Shown here: one piece after another, positions 1,937 through 16,142 of the stretch | Layout of the letters: every line of letters begins with the position of its first letter | Numbering within the stretch: position 1 is the first letter of the stretch | NCBI GenBank assembly: GCA_018240465.1 | Contig: JAFEFS010000059.1 | Span: forward strand, 1-64,000 | Direction: 5' to 3' | DNA from: Pseudomonadota bacterium | GTDB taxonomy: Bacteria > Pseudomonadota > Gammaproteobacteria > Xanthomonadales > Rhodanobacteraceae | DNA: 64,000 bases | Notes under the pieces: generated by a model | What the model was told of the DNA's origin: nothing | Database searches by the model: none | What the model saw: only the letters and a program-made list of their open reading frames with translations | Made by a program: the position numbers and the translations under genes

Positions 1937-3995
<2,059 letters not shown>

Positions 3996-4118: not shown

Positions 4119-4694
4119 ATGGCAGTTGCAATTCATCCATCCGTAGACAAAGGCCTCAAGCCCGCCGCCGCGGGTTTCGCGGGCGGCACCCTGGTCTGCA
4201 AGTGCAGCAGCAATCCGGTCAAGGTGCAGGTCGATTCGCAGGTGCTGCACAACCATGCGTGCGGCTGCACCAAGTGCTGGAAGCCGGCCGGTGCGCTGTT
4301 CTCCGTCGTCGGCGTCGTGCCGAAGGACAAAGTGAAGGTGACCGAGAACGGCAACAAGCTCAAGATCGTCGACGACAAGGCGACGATCCAGCGCTACGCC
4401 TGCACCGGCTGCGGTGTGCACCTGTTCGGCCGCATTGAGAACAACAAGCACGCGTTCTACGGACTGGACTTCATCCACGCCGAACTGTCGCCGCAGTCAG
4501 GCTGGGCGCCGGCCGGTTTCGCCGCGTTCGTGTCATCAATCATCGAAGCCGGCGCCGACCCGAACGGTATGGGTGCGGTGCGCGCTCGGCTGAAGGAGAT
4601 TTTCGGCAACGACTACTACGACTGCCTCAACCCGCCGCTGATGGATGCTCTGGCGACACATGCGGCCAAACAGAGCGGCGTGCTCAAGGCCTGA
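4119..4694 (+). CDS. gfa: S-(hydroxymethyl)glutathione synthase
   Basis: The 191-aa protein is a member of the Gfa (glutathione-dependent formaldehyde-activating) family, which speeds the condensation of formaldehyde with glutathione. The zinc-binding cysteines are seen in [19 protein letters not shown] and CTGCGVHLF, and the family segment [10 protein letters not shown] is present. The start is supported by CGGGAGG 7 nt upstream of ATG 4119. It lies 123 nt after frmA and is followed at once by an intrinsic terminator, so it is the last gene of the fghA-frmA-gfa unit. The presence of Gfa suggests the cell meets real formaldehyde flux, in line with the quinoprotein dehydrogenase cluster downstream. 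Confidence 0.93.
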
Positions 4695-8152: not shown

Positions 8153-10237
8153 TCAGTGCGAGAGCACGATGCCGTGCTTGTGCATCTTGCGATACAACGT
8201 ATTGCGGCTGATGTTGAGCGCCGCCGCCGTGCGGCTGACGTTCCAGCGCAGGCGCTCCAGTTCGCGCAGCAGGGCCGCGCGTTCGGCGTCGCGCAGCGCG
8301 CTCGACGGCAGGCCGGCCGGTCCTTGCGCTGTGCCGGACGCACCCGCACCGACGAAAGATGCCGGTGCGGGCGCGGCCTGGTAGTCGTTGTCGAGAATTT
8401 CCTGCGGCAGGTTCGATAGCCGGATCGTGTGGTTGCGGCACAGCACCGATGCGGTCCGCAGCACGTTGCGCAGCTGGCGCACGTTGCCGGGCCAGGGATA
8501 GTCGATCAGGCGCTTGAACGCGTCGCGCGCGATCTCGATGGTGGCGTCGGCGGCTTCTTCGCGCAGCAGTGCCTGGATCAGTTCGGCCTTGTCGCCGCGA
8601 TCGCGAAGCAGGGGCAGGCACAGCGTCATTCCGTTGAGACGGTAGTACAAGTCCTCGCGGAATTCGCCGCTCGCGACCATCGCGCGCAGATCGCGATGGC
8701 TTGCGGTGATCACGTGCAGGTCGACCGGGATCGCGGCCTCGCCGCCGAGCGGGGCCACCTCGCGTGCCTCGATGACGCGCAACAGGCGCGTCTGCAGCAG
8801 CATCGGCATGTCGCCGATTTCGTCGAGGAACAGCGTGCCTCCGCTGGATTGCTGGATCTTGCCGGCGCGTCCCTCTCTGGAAGTGTTCGCGAACTTGCCC
8901 TGGGCGTAGCCGAACAGCTCGCTCTCGATGAGGCTTTCCGGTATCGCAGCACAATTGACCGTGACGAACGGGCGATCGTGCCAATGGCTCTCGCGATGCA
9001 AGGTGCGTGCGAATGCCTCCTTGCCCGTGCCGGTTGCGCCCTGCAGCAGGATCGGTATTTGTTTGGCGAACAGTTGGTGGCCACAGGCGAGGGCCTTGTG
9101 GATTGCTTCGTCCGCGCCGACGTACTGATTTCCCGGTTCGAGGCGTGTATTCACCTGCGCCTGGGCCAGTATTCCTCCCTGCCCCGGGCCCGACGCGCCG
9201 ATGCGCAGCAGGCTGGCGTTCAAGGGCTGCGGGACAGGCGCGCGCACGATCGCGAAGAAGCGGCGGCCCAAGGCCACGTCGCGCACGGGCCAGATCGCAC
9301 CCGATTCGCTGTATGCGCGCTGCTCGAGTGTGGTGAAGTCGAACTGGAAGAATTCCGAGATCGACTTGCCGACCAGTTGCTTGCGGTTCGCGCAGCCGAG
9401 CTGGAGCAGCGCGGACTCGTTGACCGCCTGGACGTTGCCGCTGGCATCCACCGCCAGCAGCGCTTCGTGCAGCAGACCGACGAACTCCGGGCGGCTGTGG
9501 AAGCGCAGGATGTAGCCATGGCCGAACTCGCGCAGGAAATTCCAGCGCGAGATCAGGTTGGCCGACATGTTCACCAGGGCCATCGTATGGCGCTGGATCA
9601 GGCGGCTGTCATTCGAATTCACGGTGGAGGCATCGAGCACGGCCATCAATTCACCGTGCGGATCGAGGATGGGAGCGCCGGAGCACGACAGGCTCATGTT
9701 GTAGCCGCGAAAATGCTCCTCGCGGTGCACGGTCACCGCGCCGGCTTCCGCAACGCAGGTGCCGATGCCGTTCGTGCCTTCGTGGCGTTCGTCCCAGAGT
9801 GCGCCGAGCCACAGGCCGGCCTGACGGAATTCGCGTTGTAGGGTGGGATCGGTGATCGTGTTGAGCACGGTGCCCCGCGCGTCGGCGAGGATGACGGCAA
9901 AGCCCGAACCGGAGATCTGCTCGTAGAGGCTTTCCATTTCGGCACGCGCGACACGCAGCAATTCGCCCATGCGCTGCTGCAGTTCCTTCACCGACAGCGG
10001 ATCGAGTACGGCAACCTGGCGCGGCCCCTGCGGTTCGATGCCGTATTCCTTGATGCAGCGATACCACGAACGGGTGACGTGCGGCTCGATCCCGGCCGGT
10101 CTCAGGCCGCTTTGTACGGTGTTGATGATGCGCGAGGCGTGGCTGCTGGCGAGTACCGATAGTGTCACGCGACTGCCCTCGAGTGTCGTGGCGCCGGACA
10201 ATACGCCGCGTGTTGGCGGCGCATACCGCCGCTCCAT
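8153..10237 (-). CDS. AcoR-like Fis-family AAA+ transcriptional regulator with degenerate GAFTGA loop
   Basis: The 694-aa product has the AcoR layout: an N-terminal GAF-like sensor (about 70-230, with WDERHEGTNGIGTC), a PAS segment (about 265-310), an AAA+ domain (about 370-600) and a C-terminal Fis helix-turn-helix (WNVSRTAAALNISRNTLYRKM). Walker A is GATGTGKEA, Walker B is GGTLFLDEIGD, and the arginine-finger region is FREDLYYRLNG. Where sigma-54 activators carry GAFTGA, this protein reads GKFANT. GTG at about 10168, with GAGGG upstream, is an alternative start to ATG 10237, whose purine tract abuts the codon. It is the last gene of the minus-strand quinoprotein cluster, 113 nt after the cytochrome gene, and probably controls it. 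Confidence 0.88.
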   Translation of the reverse strand: MERRYAPPTRGVLSGATTLEGSRVTLSVLASSHASRIINTVQSGLRPAGIEPHVTRSWYRCIKEYGIEPQGPRQVAVLDPLSVKELQQRMGELLRVARAEMESLYEQISGSGFAVILADARGTVLNTITDPTLQREFRQAGLWLGALWDERHEGTNGIGTCVAEAGAVTVHREEHFRGYNMSLSCSGAPILDPHGELMAVLDASTVNSNDSRLIQRHTMALVNMSANLISRWNFLREFGHGYILRFHSRPEFVGLLHEALLAVDASGNVQAVNESALLQLGCANRKQLVGKSISEFFQFDFTTLEQRAYSESGAIWPVRDVALGRRFFAIVRAPVPQPLNASLLRIGASGPGQGGILAQAQVNTRLEPGNQYVGADEAIHKALACGHQLFAKQIPILLQGATGTGKEAFARTLHRESHWHDRPFVTVNCAAIPESLIESELFGYAQGKFANTSREGRAGKIQQSSGGTLFLDEIGDMPMLLQTRLLRVIEAREVAPLGGEAAIPVDLHVITASHRDLRAMVASGEFREDLYYRLNGMTLCLPLLRDRGDKAELIQALLREEAADATIEIARDAFKRLIDYPWPGNVRQLRNVLRTASVLCRNHTIRLSNLPQEILDNDYQAAPAPASFVGAGASGTAQGPAGLPSSALRDAERAALLRELERLRWNVSRTAAALNISRNTLYRKMHKHGIVLSH

Positions 10238-10350: not shown

Positions 10351-10887
10351 TCACTGCTGGTCGGGCGGGGTGCCGTATTTGTAGGCCGGGTCGGCGTTTG
10401 GCGAGTATTTGGAGCGAATGAAGGCAATGATTTTCCACAGATCATCGGCGTTCTTGATGATGCCGCCGAATGGAGGCATCGGGCCGACGACGTTTTCGCG
10501 GCCCTTGCGCATGTATCCGGCTTTCTGCAACTCGTCGCTGCCGAGCGTGACGAGACGATAGAGCGTGTCGTCGTCGCCGCCGTAGACCCAGACGTCGTTG
10601 ATCAACGGCGGGCACATGCCGCCGCCGCCGCCGCCACCGTGGCAACCGTTGCAGCCGTAGCTGAGAAAAACGTGTTCGCCTTCGGCAAGGACTTTCGCAT
10701 CGGTGTCCTTGTAGGGATTCTTCAGCTGACCCTTCGGTGTTTTCGCCACGAGATCGGTTGGCTTGATCGTGGTCAGATCGACTGCCTTCGGTGCATCGGC
10801 TGCGATGGCCGCCTCCAGAGTGCAGGCCGCGCCGGCGAGGGCCAGCGCACATGCCAAACCGCCAAGAATTTTTTTCAACACCACCAC
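10351..10887 (-). CDS. xoxG: XoxG/cytochrome cL-like c-type cytochrome
   Basis: The product of about 178 aa has an N-terminal signal peptide (ILGGLACALALAGAACTLEA) and one haem-attachment motif, CNGCH, followed by an unusual run of seven glycines. A Met in GPMPPFGG is a candidate axial ligand. Length, single haem and position beside a PQQ dehydrogenase fit the XoxG/MxaG cytochrome family, which accepts electrons from quinoprotein alcohol dehydrogenases in the periplasm. There is no ATG at the start. Three GTG codons and a TTG follow AGAGGAG, and GTG 10884 or 10881 has the best spacing. It lies 95 nt after the xoxJ-like gene. Confidence 0.85.
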   Translation of the reverse strand: MVVLKKILGGLACALALAGAACTLEAAIAADAPKAVDLTTIKPTDLVAKTPKGQLKNPYKDTDAKVLAEGEHVFLSYGCNGCHGGGGGGGMCPPLINDVWVYGGDDDTLYRLVTLGSDELQKAGYMRKGRENVVGPMPPFGGIIKNADDLWKIIAFIRSKYSPNADPAYKYGTPPDQQ

Positions 10888-10982
10888 AACTCCTCTGCTG
10901 GCTGAATCACGGGTTCTGCTTGTACCCCGACTGCGTCACGTCCCTGCGCCTTGCTTCGGAGCGAAGAAGGCACGGGTGGCTC

Positions 10983-12617
10983 CTAGGAGCCGGTGCGCTT
11001 TTCGTTGCCCTGCAGCAGTTTCAGCACGGCTGCGCTGTTGCTGGATTGGGCGATCTTGGTGGCCGTGCGGCCATCCTGGCTCGTCGCCGTCACGTCGGCG
11101 CCGGCGGCGAGCAGGCGCGCGGCAATCTTGGGCTGGTCCTTTGCCGCGGCGATCATCAGTGCGGTAACGCCGCCCGCATTCTTCGCGTTCACCCTGGCGC
11201 CGCGTTTGAGCAGTTGATCGATGATGCTGAGCGAGTCCGCGTTCGCCGCGAGCATCAACGGCGTGTAACCACCCGTACCCGCACCGAGGTTGACATCCGC
11301 GCCGGCTTCGATCAACGCGGCGGCGGCTCTGGCCTTGCCATTTTGCGCGGCGATTGCGAGCGGATTGGAACCCTCCTCGTCGGCGAGGTCGATTTTCGCG
11401 CCGTGCGTCGTCAGCAGGCGCACCTGATCGGGATCGTCGTTCCAGGCCGCGTACATCAGCGGCGTCCAGTGGCTGATATCGGCCTGGTTTGCGTCGGCCT
11501 TGTGTTCGAGCAGATAGGCCGCGATCTTGTCGAAGCCGAAGCGCGTCGCATTGGTCAGCGGGGTGTAGCCATCGTTGAAGCGCACGTTCGCGTTCGCGCC
11601 ATGATCCAGCACGTAGGCTACGCGCTCGGGATCGTTCGCGACGATGGCATTGCCGAGTTCTTCGTCGACGTCGGCACCTTGCTTGAGCGCTTCCTTGAGC
11701 GCCGCGAAGCGAGTCTCGTGTTCGGCTTTTTCCGCTTCGGCGTCGGCGAGTGTCGTTTGCGGCAGCGGCTTGTACTCCCCGTGCGAGGGCAGGTCGCCGT
11801 CGATCACGCAATCGGCGCAATGCACGAGCGGCACGCCGTAGTCGACCAGAATCTGCCTGATTTCGTTCTTGCGCGTGCGCATGGCGCGTTCGACCGCCGC
11901 CTTGATCTCGGGGCGGCCGCGCGCGGTGGCGAGCGTCATGCTGAATTCGAGCGGGACGGTATCGTCGATCGTGTTCATCGGCTGGATCACCAGCGGCGCC
12001 TTCTCGATCGTCTTGTAGTACCCGGCCATCGGGCCCCAGGCGGCGGCGATGTCGAGCTTGCCGTCGACGACCTGCTTGATCTGATAGGAAGGCTGGTTCT
12101 GTTTGACCAGATCGCCGTTGTGACTGATGTACTGCACCACCGTGTTCGCCATGATGCCGTGCTGCGAGAGCGCCTGACGCGCCGCGGACATCTGGAACAC
12201 ACCGATGCGAAGATTCTGCAGGCGCGGTTCGTTCAGCGACTGGAACTTGCCGTAGCCTTTGTCGCTGCGATAGGCGAGGACGAAGGTCGAGCGATACAGC
12301 GGCGCGGTGACGACGGCGCCGTCGGTGTCGGTGGCCATGTCCATCCACAAGTCGCAATTGCCGTCGGACAGCGTGGTGCGCATCAAGCCGCGCTCGATCG
12401 ACGGCCGCCAATAGTACGAAACACCGACGCCAAGTTCCTTGCCGAGTACTTGCGCAATCTTGTTCTGGAACCCTTCACCCTTCTGGTCGGACAACGGCAT
12501 GTTGCCGGGGTCGGCGCAGACGGTCAGCGATTTCAGGCTGTCATCGGCGGCGCACGCGTGACCGGCGAAGGCGCAGGCGCCGGCAAACACGAGGGCATGG
12601 CGAAGGGAAGGTTTCAT
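10983..12617 (-). CDS. xoxJ: XoxJ-like periplasmic binding protein fused to ankyrin repeats
   Basis: The 544-aa product starts with a signal peptide (cleaved near GHACA-ADD). It then has a substrate-binding-protein domain (about 30-275) of the quinoprotein-dehydrogenase-associated type, with VCADPGNMPLS and a DLWMDMATD segment. MoxJ/XoxJ proteins of this fold are needed for activity of the adjacent PQQ dehydrogenase and may help its maturation. From about residue 305 to the end are roughly seven ankyrin repeats (for example GYTPLTNATRFGFDKIAAYL and HWTPLMYAAWNDDPDQV). Plain XoxJ is about 280 aa, so the ankyrin half is an addition. It is placed between the dehydrogenase and the cytochrome, 117 nt after the former. 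Confidence 0.88.
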   Translation of the reverse strand: MKPSLRHALVFAGACAFAGHACAADDSLKSLTVCADPGNMPLSDQKGEGFQNKIAQVLGKELGVGVSYYWRPSIERGLMRTTLSDGNCDLWMDMATDTDGAVVTAPLYRSTFVLAYRSDKGYGKFQSLNEPRLQNLRIGVFQMSAARQALSQHGIMANTVVQYISHNGDLVKQNQPSYQIKQVVDGKLDIAAAWGPMAGYYKTIEKAPLVIQPMNTIDDTVPLEFSMTLATARGRPEIKAAVERAMRTRKNEIRQILVDYGVPLVHCADCVIDGDLPSHGEYKPLPQTTLADAEAEKAEHETRFAALKEALKQGADVDEELGNAIVANDPERVAYVLDHGANANVRFNDGYTPLTNATRFGFDKIAAYLLEHKADANQADISHWTPLMYAAWNDDPDQVRLLTTHGAKIDLADEEGSNPLAIAAQNGKARAAAALIEAGADVNLGAGTGGYTPLMLAANADSLSIIDQLLKRGARVNAKNAGGVTALMIAAAKDQPKIAARLLAAGADVTATSQDGRTATKIAQSSNSAAVLKLLQGNEKRTGS

Positions 12618-12734
12618 CGGTTCTGTTCCTGTTTCCTGTGGTGCCGTTCATTCATCGCAACCCATGGGCGAGCCCTTGTCGTGTGTCCGGTGCATTGCGC
12701 ACCGAACACGCGTTTTTTTCAGGACGTTGCGACC

Positions 12735-14627
12735 TCAGCTTCCGCCGAGACGGAACGTGTACAGCGTGCCGCCTTGCGGGATGTGGTTCAGTCCCGCCGC
12801 CTTGGTCATCGCCGTCGCGCCGATCGCACCGAACTTGTCGCTCAGGTCCAGGCCAGCGGTGACCGGCAGGCCGATCCAGCCGCCGATGCCAGACCACACC
12901 GACACATATTGCTTGCCCTTCACCGACCAGCTGATCGGGTTGCCGATGATGCCCGAGCCGAGCTTGCGCGACCAAAGGATCTTGCCGGTTCCGCGATCGA
13001 GGGCGCGGAAGTCACCGCCGAGGCTGCCGTAGAAGACCAGACCACCCGCCGTGGTCAGCGTGCCGCCCCAGTTCGGATACGGATCGGGCACTTCCCACTC
13101 GGTCTTGCCGGTGACGACGTTGAACTTCTTGATCTTGCCGGTCACGCCGGGTTTCTCGGGATACATGTACACGTTGGCGAACACGTACACCGTGCCTTGC
13201 TGCGTGTGCGAACGTTCCTGCGGGTTCAACTCCATGCACCAGTTGTTCGTCGGCACGTAGAACACGGCCGGATCGCTCGGATCGACCGACGCCGGCTGCT
13301 GGTCCTTGCCGCCCATCGCGGACGGGCAGACCTGCACGTTCTTCTGCGGTTCGAGCGGCGAATGTTCGGCCACCTTCACCGGGCGTCCGGTCTTCATGTC
13401 GACCTTCTCGGCCCAGTTCGCAGTGACATATTTGTGCGCGCGCAGCAGGGTGCCATCGGCGCGATCGAGCACGTAGGCGAAACCGTTGCGGTCGAACTCG
13501 ACCAAGGCTTTGTGCTTCTTGCCGTCGACGTCGAGGTTGTCGACGAGGATGACTTCGTTGATGCCGTCGTAGTCCCACTGGTCGAATGGTGTCTTCTGGT
13601 AGACCCATGCGACTTCACCGGTGTCCACGTTGCGCGCGAAGATCGACATCGACCACTTGTTGTCCCACGAACCGTCGTTGCAGGCCGCCTGGGTTTGCGG
13701 TTTCGCGCCGCAGCGGTACGAAGGGCTCCACAGGCCGGGGTTGCCGGTGCCGTAGTAGACCAGGTGCAGATCCGGATCGTAGGCGTACCAGCCCCACGCC
13801 GCACCGCCACCGCGCTGCCATTCGTCGCCCGGGTAGGTGTGGATGCCGAGATCCTTGCCGGCGGTACCGTATTGCGGGTTCTTCGCATTCGACTTCGCAG
13901 TCAGGCCCACATCCTTGTCGCTGCCGTTGCTGTAGAACTCCCATACCTTCTTGCCGTCGGCGAGGTTGTAGGCGGTGAAGCGGCCGCGCGCGGCGAATTC
14001 GTCGCCGCCGAAGCCGATCATGACCTTGTCGTTGGCGATGATCGGCGCAGGGGTGATCGTTTCGCCCTTGTCCGGATGCGCGTGCTTGACCACCCACGCC
14101 TCCTTGCCGGTCGCCGCATCGAGCGCGATCACGAAGCCGTCGAGGGTGCCGAACACGAGCTTGCCTTCGGCATAGGAGAGACCGCGGTTGACCGTGTCGC
14201 AGCAAGCGCGCGGCACGGCGGACTCGTCGCGTCCGGAGGTCTTGGTGTAGCTCCACACCTGCACCGGATGATCCGGGTCGGAGAGATCGAGCGCCTGGAT
14301 GATGTTCGGCCAGCCGCTTGAGAGGAACATCATCGGCTTGCCACCGACATCGCTGATCACCAGAGGCTGACCCTCGTGGCCGCGCAGCGTGCCGCTGGAT
14401 TGCGACCAGGCGTACTGCAGATCCTTGACGTTCGATGCGTTGATGTCCTTGAGCGCGCTGTAACGGTGCTGGTCGAGGTTGCCCGCCGGCGCGCCCCACT
14501 GGTTGGGGTCCTTGAAGCGGGCGAATTGTTCGGCATCGGAGCCCGCGCTCGCCGTACCGCTGAACGCGACCAGTACCGCGATTGCTGCCGTCATCTTGAG
14601 CTTTCGTTGCAACGTGGAATCTTTCAT
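12735..14627 (-). CDS. xoxF: PQQ-dependent methanol/alcohol dehydrogenase, XoxF-like, lanthanide type
   Basis: The 630-aa product has a signal peptide (cleaved near GTASA-GS) and the eight-bladed quinoprotein propeller of MxaF/XoxF enzymes. It contains the vicinal disulfide pair Cys142-Cys143 (ACCDTVNRG). Metal ligands line up as Glu210 (GDEFAARG), Asn296 (GTGNPG) and the catalytic Asp352. Asp354 occupies the position two residues on (QWDYDG), where calcium enzymes have Ala and lanthanide enzymes Asp. It should oxidise methanol or other primary alcohols in the periplasm and pass electrons to the cytochrome encoded downstream. GAGGA upstream fixes ATG 14627. Substrate preference within the XoxF/ExaF group is not decidable here. 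Confidence 0.92.
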   Translation of the reverse strand: MKDSTLQRKLKMTAAIAVLVAFSGTASAGSDAEQFARFKDPNQWGAPAGNLDQHRYSALKDINASNVKDLQYAWSQSSGTLRGHEGQPLVISDVGGKPMMFLSSGWPNIIQALDLSDPDHPVQVWSYTKTSGRDESAVPRACCDTVNRGLSYAEGKLVFGTLDGFVIALDAATGKEAWVVKHAHPDKGETITPAPIIANDKVMIGFGGDEFAARGRFTAYNLADGKKVWEFYSNGSDKDVGLTAKSNAKNPQYGTAGKDLGIHTYPGDEWQRGGGAAWGWYAYDPDLHLVYYGTGNPGLWSPSYRCGAKPQTQAACNDGSWDNKWSMSIFARNVDTGEVAWVYQKTPFDQWDYDGINEVILVDNLDVDGKKHKALVEFDRNGFAYVLDRADGTLLRAHKYVTANWAEKVDMKTGRPVKVAEHSPLEPQKNVQVCPSAMGGKDQQPASVDPSDPAVFYVPTNNWCMELNPQERSHTQQGTVYVFANVYMYPEKPGVTGKIKKFNVVTGKTEWEVPDPYPNWGGTLTTAGGLVFYGSLGGDFRALDRGTGKILWSRKLGSGIIGNPISWSVKGKQYVSVWSGIGGWIGLPVTAGLDLSDKFGAIGATAMTKAAGLNHIPQGGTLYTFRLGGS

Positions 14628-15099: not shown

Positions 15100-16059
15100 T
15101 CAGGGAATCGTCACGCCCCAAGGCAACTCACCGACCGCAATTTCCCTGACCGGCTTGCGCGTCGCCGTATCGATCACGCTGACGCTGTTCGAGCGGCCAT
15201 TGGCGACATAGAGCTTCTTGCCGTCGCGCGTCAGCGCCATGTTCCACGGCCGCTTGCCGACCGGGATGTCCGCGACGACCTTGTTCGTCGCGATGTCGAT
15301 CACCGACACGCTGCCCGCGCCGCCGTTGGCGATGTAAACCGTCTTGCCGTCGGCGCTGGCGATCGCCCCGGCCGAGCGCAGCGCGGAGGCGATGGTGCGC
15401 ACGACGCTGCGCTTGTCGGCATCGACGACATCGACCGCATTTGCCGTTTCCGCTGCCACGTAGGCGGTGTGCGTGCCCGGAAGAAATGCGATGCCGCGCG
15501 GATGCCCGCTCGATTTGACCGTGCCGCGCGTGACCCCGGCTTTGAGGTCGACCACGTCGATGTCGTTGGAGTTTTCGTTGCTTGCGAGCAGCAGCGCGCC
15601 GTCGGGACTGAACACGCAATGCTCCGGATTCTTGCCGGCGAGTGCGATGTGTTTGGTTACCTTCAGCGTCTTGACGTCGACCAAGGCGACTGCGTTGTCG
15701 TCTTCAAGACAGGCCGCGAGCAGCTCGCCGTTGGCCGACAGGCCGAGCCCCTCGGGGCTGTCACCGACCGGAATCTGCGCCTTGAGCTTGTCCGTGGCGA
15801 CGTCGAGCGCATCGATCTTGCCGCCCTTCGCATCGACCACGAACAAGGTCTTGCCCGTGTGGTCGGCGACGATGCCACGCACGTTCTTGCCGAGCTTGCC
15901 TTCGCCGCTCAACGTGCGCACGACTTCATCCTTGGCCGTGTCGATCACCGACACCGTGCCGCTGGCCTGATTCGACACGTAGGCGAACGGCGCGGCGAAG
16001 GCGGGCACGCAAAACGCGATGGCAAGGGCGGCAGCAATTGCATGGCGGGAGAGGCGCAT
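15100..16059 (-). CDS. YVTN-type beta-propeller protein associated with PQQ-dependent oxidation
   Basis: The 319-aa product has a signal peptide (MRLSRHAIAAALAIAF, cleaved near AFA-AP). About seven YVTN/YncE blades follow, each near 42 aa with motifs such as VSVIDTA, VANGRSNSVSV and GHPRGIAF. Genes of this kind recur next to quinoprotein dehydrogenases and are described as PQQ-dependent catabolism-associated beta-propellers; a precise function is not known. ATG 16059 was chosen because the signal peptide starts there, although the frame is open far upstream. It is the first gene of the minus-strand quinoprotein cluster but is separated from xoxF by 472 nt, so it probably has its own transcript. 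Confidence 0.85.
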   Translation of the reverse strand: MRLSRHAIAAALAIAFCVPAFAAPFAYVSNQASGTVSVIDTAKDEVVRTLSGEGKLGKNVRGIVADHTGKTLFVVDAKGGKIDALDVATDKLKAQIPVGDSPEGLGLSANGELLAACLEDDNAVALVDVKTLKVTKHIALAGKNPEHCVFSPDGALLLASNENSNDIDVVDLKAGVTRGTVKSSGHPRGIAFLPGTHTAYVAAETANAVDVVDADKRSVVRTIASALRSAGAIASADGKTVYIANGGAGSVSVIDIATNKVVADIPVGKRPWNMALTRDGKKLYVANGRSNSVSVIDTATRKPVREIAVGELPWGVTIP

Positions 16060-16142
16060 TTCGAATTCCGGCGATGAGGGCGGGCCATGAACGTTATCCG
16101 GCGGCGCCGGTTCGCTCAAGTCCTGTCGAATTCGAACTTCCG

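Follow-up and report, generated by a model that had tools for sequence, protein, structure and literature searches.

A XoxJ-like protein fused to ankyrin repeats is tied to XoxF1-type methanol dehydrogenase and may act as its dedicated loading factor

The gene at positions 10983..12617 (- strand) of the window, which is the whole 64,000-nucleotide stretch of DNA that was analysed, encodes a 544-aa protein in which a MoxJ/XoxJ-type periplasmic binding-protein domain is joined to about seven ankyrin repeats. This fusion protein, designated J-Ank, was strictly tied to a XoxF1-type methanol dehydrogenase in the genomes scanned. On sequence grounds, the chance that J-Ank is a XoxF1-specific loading factor, to which the ankyrin arm adds a docking grip, appears to be about even. 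The gene is a single open frame with an ATG start, 544 codons and no internal stop in the list of open reading frames. An 1176-aa frame at 10791-14321 (+ strand), antisense to the XoxF and J-Ank genes, looks like a high-GC shadow frame and not a gene.

Read by eye, the N-terminus of J-Ank (MKPSLRHALVFAGACAFAGHACA followed by ADD) resembles a Sec signal peptide, with residues 1-23 (12549..12617, - strand) probably being removed at ACA/A. This was the single signal peptide apparent, as had been predicted from the window, and J-Ank is probably exported by it. Residues 31-265 (11823..12527, - strand) matched positions 2-232 of the 232-position model TIGR03871 (ABC_peri_MoxJ_2) with 237.9 bits against a cut-off of 212.15, and residues 14-266 aligned with the solved XoxJ 6onp (phmmer, E = 1.3e-33). 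The J identity originally proposed is therefore borne out by the TIGR03871 score and the 6onp match, and the neighbouring genes for a PQQ alcohol dehydrogenase and a c-type cytochrome agree with membership in TIGR03871. J proteins usually consist of a single domain near 280-300 aa, a trait outside the curated TIGR03871 definition, and J-Ank, at 544 aa with its ankyrin tail, departs from this size. The J domain is followed by the motif C-x-x-C-x3-G-x-L-P-x-H-G-x-Y (residues 267-282; 11772..11819, - strand), which emerged from the alignment of 20 fused proteins, and by a variable linker (residues 283-305; 11703..11771, - strand). Linker and motif region together are acidic (residues 266-305; mean identity, 0.22; pI, 4.58), and the predicted model has a helix at residues 290-312.

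The ankyrin domain occupies residues 306-536 (11010..11702, - strand). Pfam Ank_2 matched J-Ank in four stretches (E = 1.2e-45), and Ank, Ank_4 and Ank_5 concurred. By eye, five full repeats and degenerate N- and C-terminal capping repeats were counted over approximately 230 residues, in line with the earlier estimate of about seven. J-Ank is accordingly classed as an ankyrin-repeat protein by its tandem repeats above the Pfam cut-offs and by the helix-turn-helix ladder that the predicted model contains at residues 317-543 (pLDDT mostly 80-96). The J half of the model was of low confidence, probably owing to an alignment of only nine sequences, and the arrangement of the domains and any surface match are unreadable from this model.

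Full-length homologues with the same architecture were found in the isolate Rudaea cellulosilytica DSM 22992 (83% identity), a Rhodanobacter MAG (72%), other gammaproteobacterial MAGs (approximately 60%) and a Nevskia MAG (52%). Since these homologues come from other species, J-Ank is no sequencing join. With these first relatives and more from whole-genome searches, 20 fusions were aligned, and the identical full-length frame in all 20 of them, one being from an isolate, rules out a frameshift, a read-through or an assembly error joining two genes. Such an error was one of the outcomes against which the original prediction had been set; the other was a fusion that is common and already described. 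The fusion proved to be common within XoxF1 clusters, but no published description was found. A 1162-aa ankyrin frame elsewhere in the genome (contig C87; L105 3089-6577) was considered as J-Ank-like and rejected, the J domain being absent; the 10 kb read around this gene held no XoxF or J homologue. Among the matches listed from plasmid records, only the J half was covered, and no record covered 80% of the query. J-Ank was not detected on viral contigs.

The dN/dS values of the ankyrin part against the two nearest relatives were 0.175 and 0.173, and those of the J part against the same relatives were 0.093 and 0.152. The ankyrin part is thus under purifying selection (dN/dS about 0.17). Replacement sites evolve faster in the ankyrin part than in the J part of the nearest pair (dN, 0.124 versus 0.043), as would be expected if the fusion were a historical event and its ankyrin part served stability or solubility with no specific ligand. 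However, the ankyrin part is kept at similar length in every sampled member of the fused clade across classes (Gammaproteobacteria and one genome of another class, G842), and this retention, together with the low dN/dS, makes a passive element quite unlikely.

A tree of 96 J domains (20 fused and 76 unfused rows; columns kept if filled in at least 60% of the rows) placed the 20 fused domains in one clade (SH-aLRT 98) with one change of state. The fusion arose once. The same 76 unfused rows rule out that every XoxJ carries the fusion, and the domain combination is as unusual as had been supposed, with no fusion among the 78 other J rows examined. The unfused relatives stop 0-40 residues, mostly a few, past the matched J segment, some of those with no fetched locus being classed by frame length only. 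C267, C270 and G274 were invariant in all 20 fused proteins (alignment and per-column table), and none of the 78 unfused J rows contained CxxC in the last 45 residues. C267 and C270 may form a disulfide staple. Few non-consensus ankyrin positions were invariant across the 20 fused proteins, so that no single surface for a ligand stands out as conserved at long range, which counts against the docking role. A subgroup with N-terminally extended J-Ank proteins also has a cluster gene of approximately 400 aa (L098 5655-6845, L103 10404-11609 and L102 8764-10005).

The gene at 12735..14627 (- strand), which adjoins J-Ank, encodes a 630-aa lanthanide-type methanol dehydrogenase of the XoxF1 clade, as judged from its 7o6z match, WDYD motif and position in the tree. 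Its product scored 848.7 bits with 7o6z, which we take to be the entry of the XoxF1-type enzyme of Methylacidimicrobium thermophilum AP8, versus 562.6 bits with the XoxF2 entry 4mae, 487-508 bits with the other solved XoxF proteins and about 430-474 bits with MxaF-type chains. A XoxF1 structure has been reported (PMC8546591). The WDYDG sequence of the product aligned with 7o6z and 4mae and has the extra Asp of the lanthanide type two residues past the catalytic Asp. In the tree, in which 7o6z itself was not included, this enzyme stands apart from the other XoxF/MxaF-like rows. The XoxF that the original prediction had assigned to the cluster can therefore be specified as XoxF1.

The linkage between J-Ank and XoxF1 was followed across genomes. 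Wherever the stretch around a fused locus extended to the adjoining gene, that gene encoded a XoxF 60-96% identical to that of the window. The family scans found XoxF with an identity of about 60% or higher in 10 genomes, the same 10 of 10 that had the fusion; the eleventh family match (G138) had a XoxF of 48% identity and a plain J. In the class scans, which covered 340 genomes for XoxF and 369 for J, all four XoxF1 genomes were the fused-J genomes (4/4), the family and class scans each being a sample of part of the group. Among 195 genomes of the order of G842, XoxF1 was found only in G842, which has the fusion. Two genomes (G004 and G099) contained both the XoxF1/J-Ank pair and a separate pair of an MxaF-like enzyme (39% identity) and a plain J. 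Furthermore, the XoxF partners of fused and unfused J proteins separated in the tree with a support of 100, and the XoxF and J trees branched in much the same order, a comparison that carries a long-branch warning. Across this sample, which does not extend to the XoxF1 loci of Verrucomicrobia and NC10, J-Ank and XoxF1 go strictly together, and a role with XoxF1 is therefore likely. The linkage fits other roles in the same pathway equally well.

On the other side of J-Ank, the gene at 10351..10887 (- strand) encodes a c-type cytochrome (Pfam Cytochrome_CBB3, 1.3e-8), which is probably the electron acceptor, given its XoxG-like position. Its MoxG (TIGR03872) score was 35.8 bits against a cut-off of 147.8, and it was called a c-type cytochrome only; of the XoxG envisaged originally, the adjoining c-type cytochrome stood and the XoxG-type assignment did not. 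The order XoxF1, J-Ank, cytochrome was kept in most of the loci examined. With the cytochrome gene following J-Ank directly in most fused loci, the ankyrin arm might serve electron transfer instead of loading, holding the c-type cytochrome against XoxF1 and thereby speeding methanol oxidation. The original prediction offered such a scaffold alongside help with PQQ or metal loading. We know of no requirement for a scaffold in electron transfer from XoxF to XoxG, which counts against such an arm, and we regard it as rather unlikely. The physical fusion of XoxG and XoxJ in Methylacidiphilum (PMC8498564) nevertheless provides a precedent for proximity of a J protein and a cytochrome.

Further genes of the cluster are a PQQ-associated beta-propeller protein gene (15100..16077, - strand; TIGR03866, 203 bits, under the cut-off of 287), which is a neighbour in several loci, and a sigma-54-dependent regulator gene (8153..10237, - strand; Pfam Sigma54_activat, 4e-59). 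Loci L024-L030 and L099 likewise have a sigma-54-dependent activator next to the XoxF1 cluster, and many loci have this regulator or the beta-propeller gene near the fusion. A scan for sigma-54 promoters gave no excess over chance. In L093 and L103, a sensor kinase/response-regulator-like gene pair was located near the cluster in place of the sigma-54 activator. On the same contig as J-Ank there are three genes of the glutathione-dependent formaldehyde pathway, encoding the esterase (2033-2788), a zinc dehydrogenase (2880-3995) and GFA (4119-4694). Such genes also adjoin the XoxF1 cluster in several relatives, and together with this cluster they would fit the conversion of methanol to formaldehyde and then to formate.

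XoxF1 and further homologues of PQQ-type dehydrogenases (C44 and C88) are encoded in G000, the genome of the window. A search of it for pqqC gave no match, and one for pqqE gave none above the cut-off. Because the pqqC control search likewise matched nowhere, the absence of pqqC is unproven, and dependence of G000 on external PQQ is possible. PQQ may thus have to be imported, and the ankyrin arm could anchor the helper to another envelope partner, such as a protein for the uptake of PQQ or lanthanide, the membrane or the cell wall, and concentrate cofactor delivery at one site without touching XoxF1; ankyrin repeats are generic protein-binding modules and would suit this purpose. No uptake gene, however, consistently adjoined the fusion in the loci read, where many neighbours are without annotation, and in view of this and of the uninformative pqqC control such an anchor seems unlikely.

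We favour a XoxF1-specific loading factor on the basis of the fusion's single origin and linkage to XoxF1, of what has been suggested for J proteins and of the ankyrin proteins that help catalases. XoxF-dependent growth of Methylorubrum requires XoxJ (PMC7391723), which has also been suggested to activate XoxF (PMC7391723, PMC12997753); a 2026 review relays the suggestion that J proteins bind the partly folded apo-enzyme and admit PQQ and the metal (PMC12997753). In other bacteria, ankyrin proteins promote catalase activity or heme loading, and one of them, AnkB, is periplasmic (PMC10294975, PMC9426514). J-Ank would accordingly represent a XoxJ subfamily that resides in the periplasm and serves XoxF1 alone. 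The J half would act as a chaperone, most likely binding the immature apo-dehydrogenase and letting PQQ and Ln3+ in, as is thought for XoxJ/MxaJ. The ankyrin half, carried on the linker headed by CxxC, would have XoxF1 as its ligand and most likely form a second docking surface that grips the enzyme, and this docking would most likely be the source of the helper's specificity for the XoxF1 clade. A more elaborate arrangement is highly doubtful: the J cleft, the ankyrin groove and the invariant CxxC would jointly clamp the apo-form of XoxF1 open and supply it with scavenged PQQ and lanthanide, in bacteria unable to make PQQ.

The mode of action of J proteins on methanol dehydrogenases is under debate, the proposals being regulation, maturation and contact between enzyme and cytochrome. 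J-Ank offers a tractable handle on this question through its fixed partner, separable arm, added binding module and conserved CxxC, and the genomes with fused and plain J proteins beside different enzymes add to this tractability. It may also help to explain how methanol is oxidised with rare earths in those Xanthomonadales-type bacteria that are not known as methylotrophs. In the literature searched, which excluded most subscription journals, there was no description of a XoxJ-ankyrin protein, nor of an ankyrin protein with a PQQ-dependent quinoprotein. Two papers that combine ankyrin, lanthanide and methanol dehydrogenase concern community metagenomes to judge by their titles, which do not point to such a fusion.

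J-Ank resembles the known XoxJ, MxaJ and PedG proteins (TIGR03871; 6onp) in its J domain, in its probable signal peptide and in having genes for a c-type cytochrome and a PQQ dehydrogenase on either side. In contrast to these proteins, which end soon past 'YGVPLL', it continues with the CxxC motif, the linker and the ankyrin repeats. Fusions of J proteins as such are already known, since XoxGJ of Methylacidiphilum (PMC8498564) is likewise a J protein joined to another domain in a XoxF system; the partner domain there is the cytochrome XoxG, whereas that of J-Ank is the ankyrin repeats, a variant that is apparently undescribed. By analogy only, J-Ank is also comparable to the AnkB/KatB and Cj1386/KatA pairs, in which an ankyrin helper promotes a partner enzyme (PMC10294975, PMC9426514). 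AnkB and Cj1386 are stand-alone proteins for heme catalases, whereas J-Ank lies beside XoxF1, outside the stand-alone ankyrin and catalase group, and has its ankyrin repeats fused to a binding protein for a PQQ- and lanthanide-dependent enzyme.
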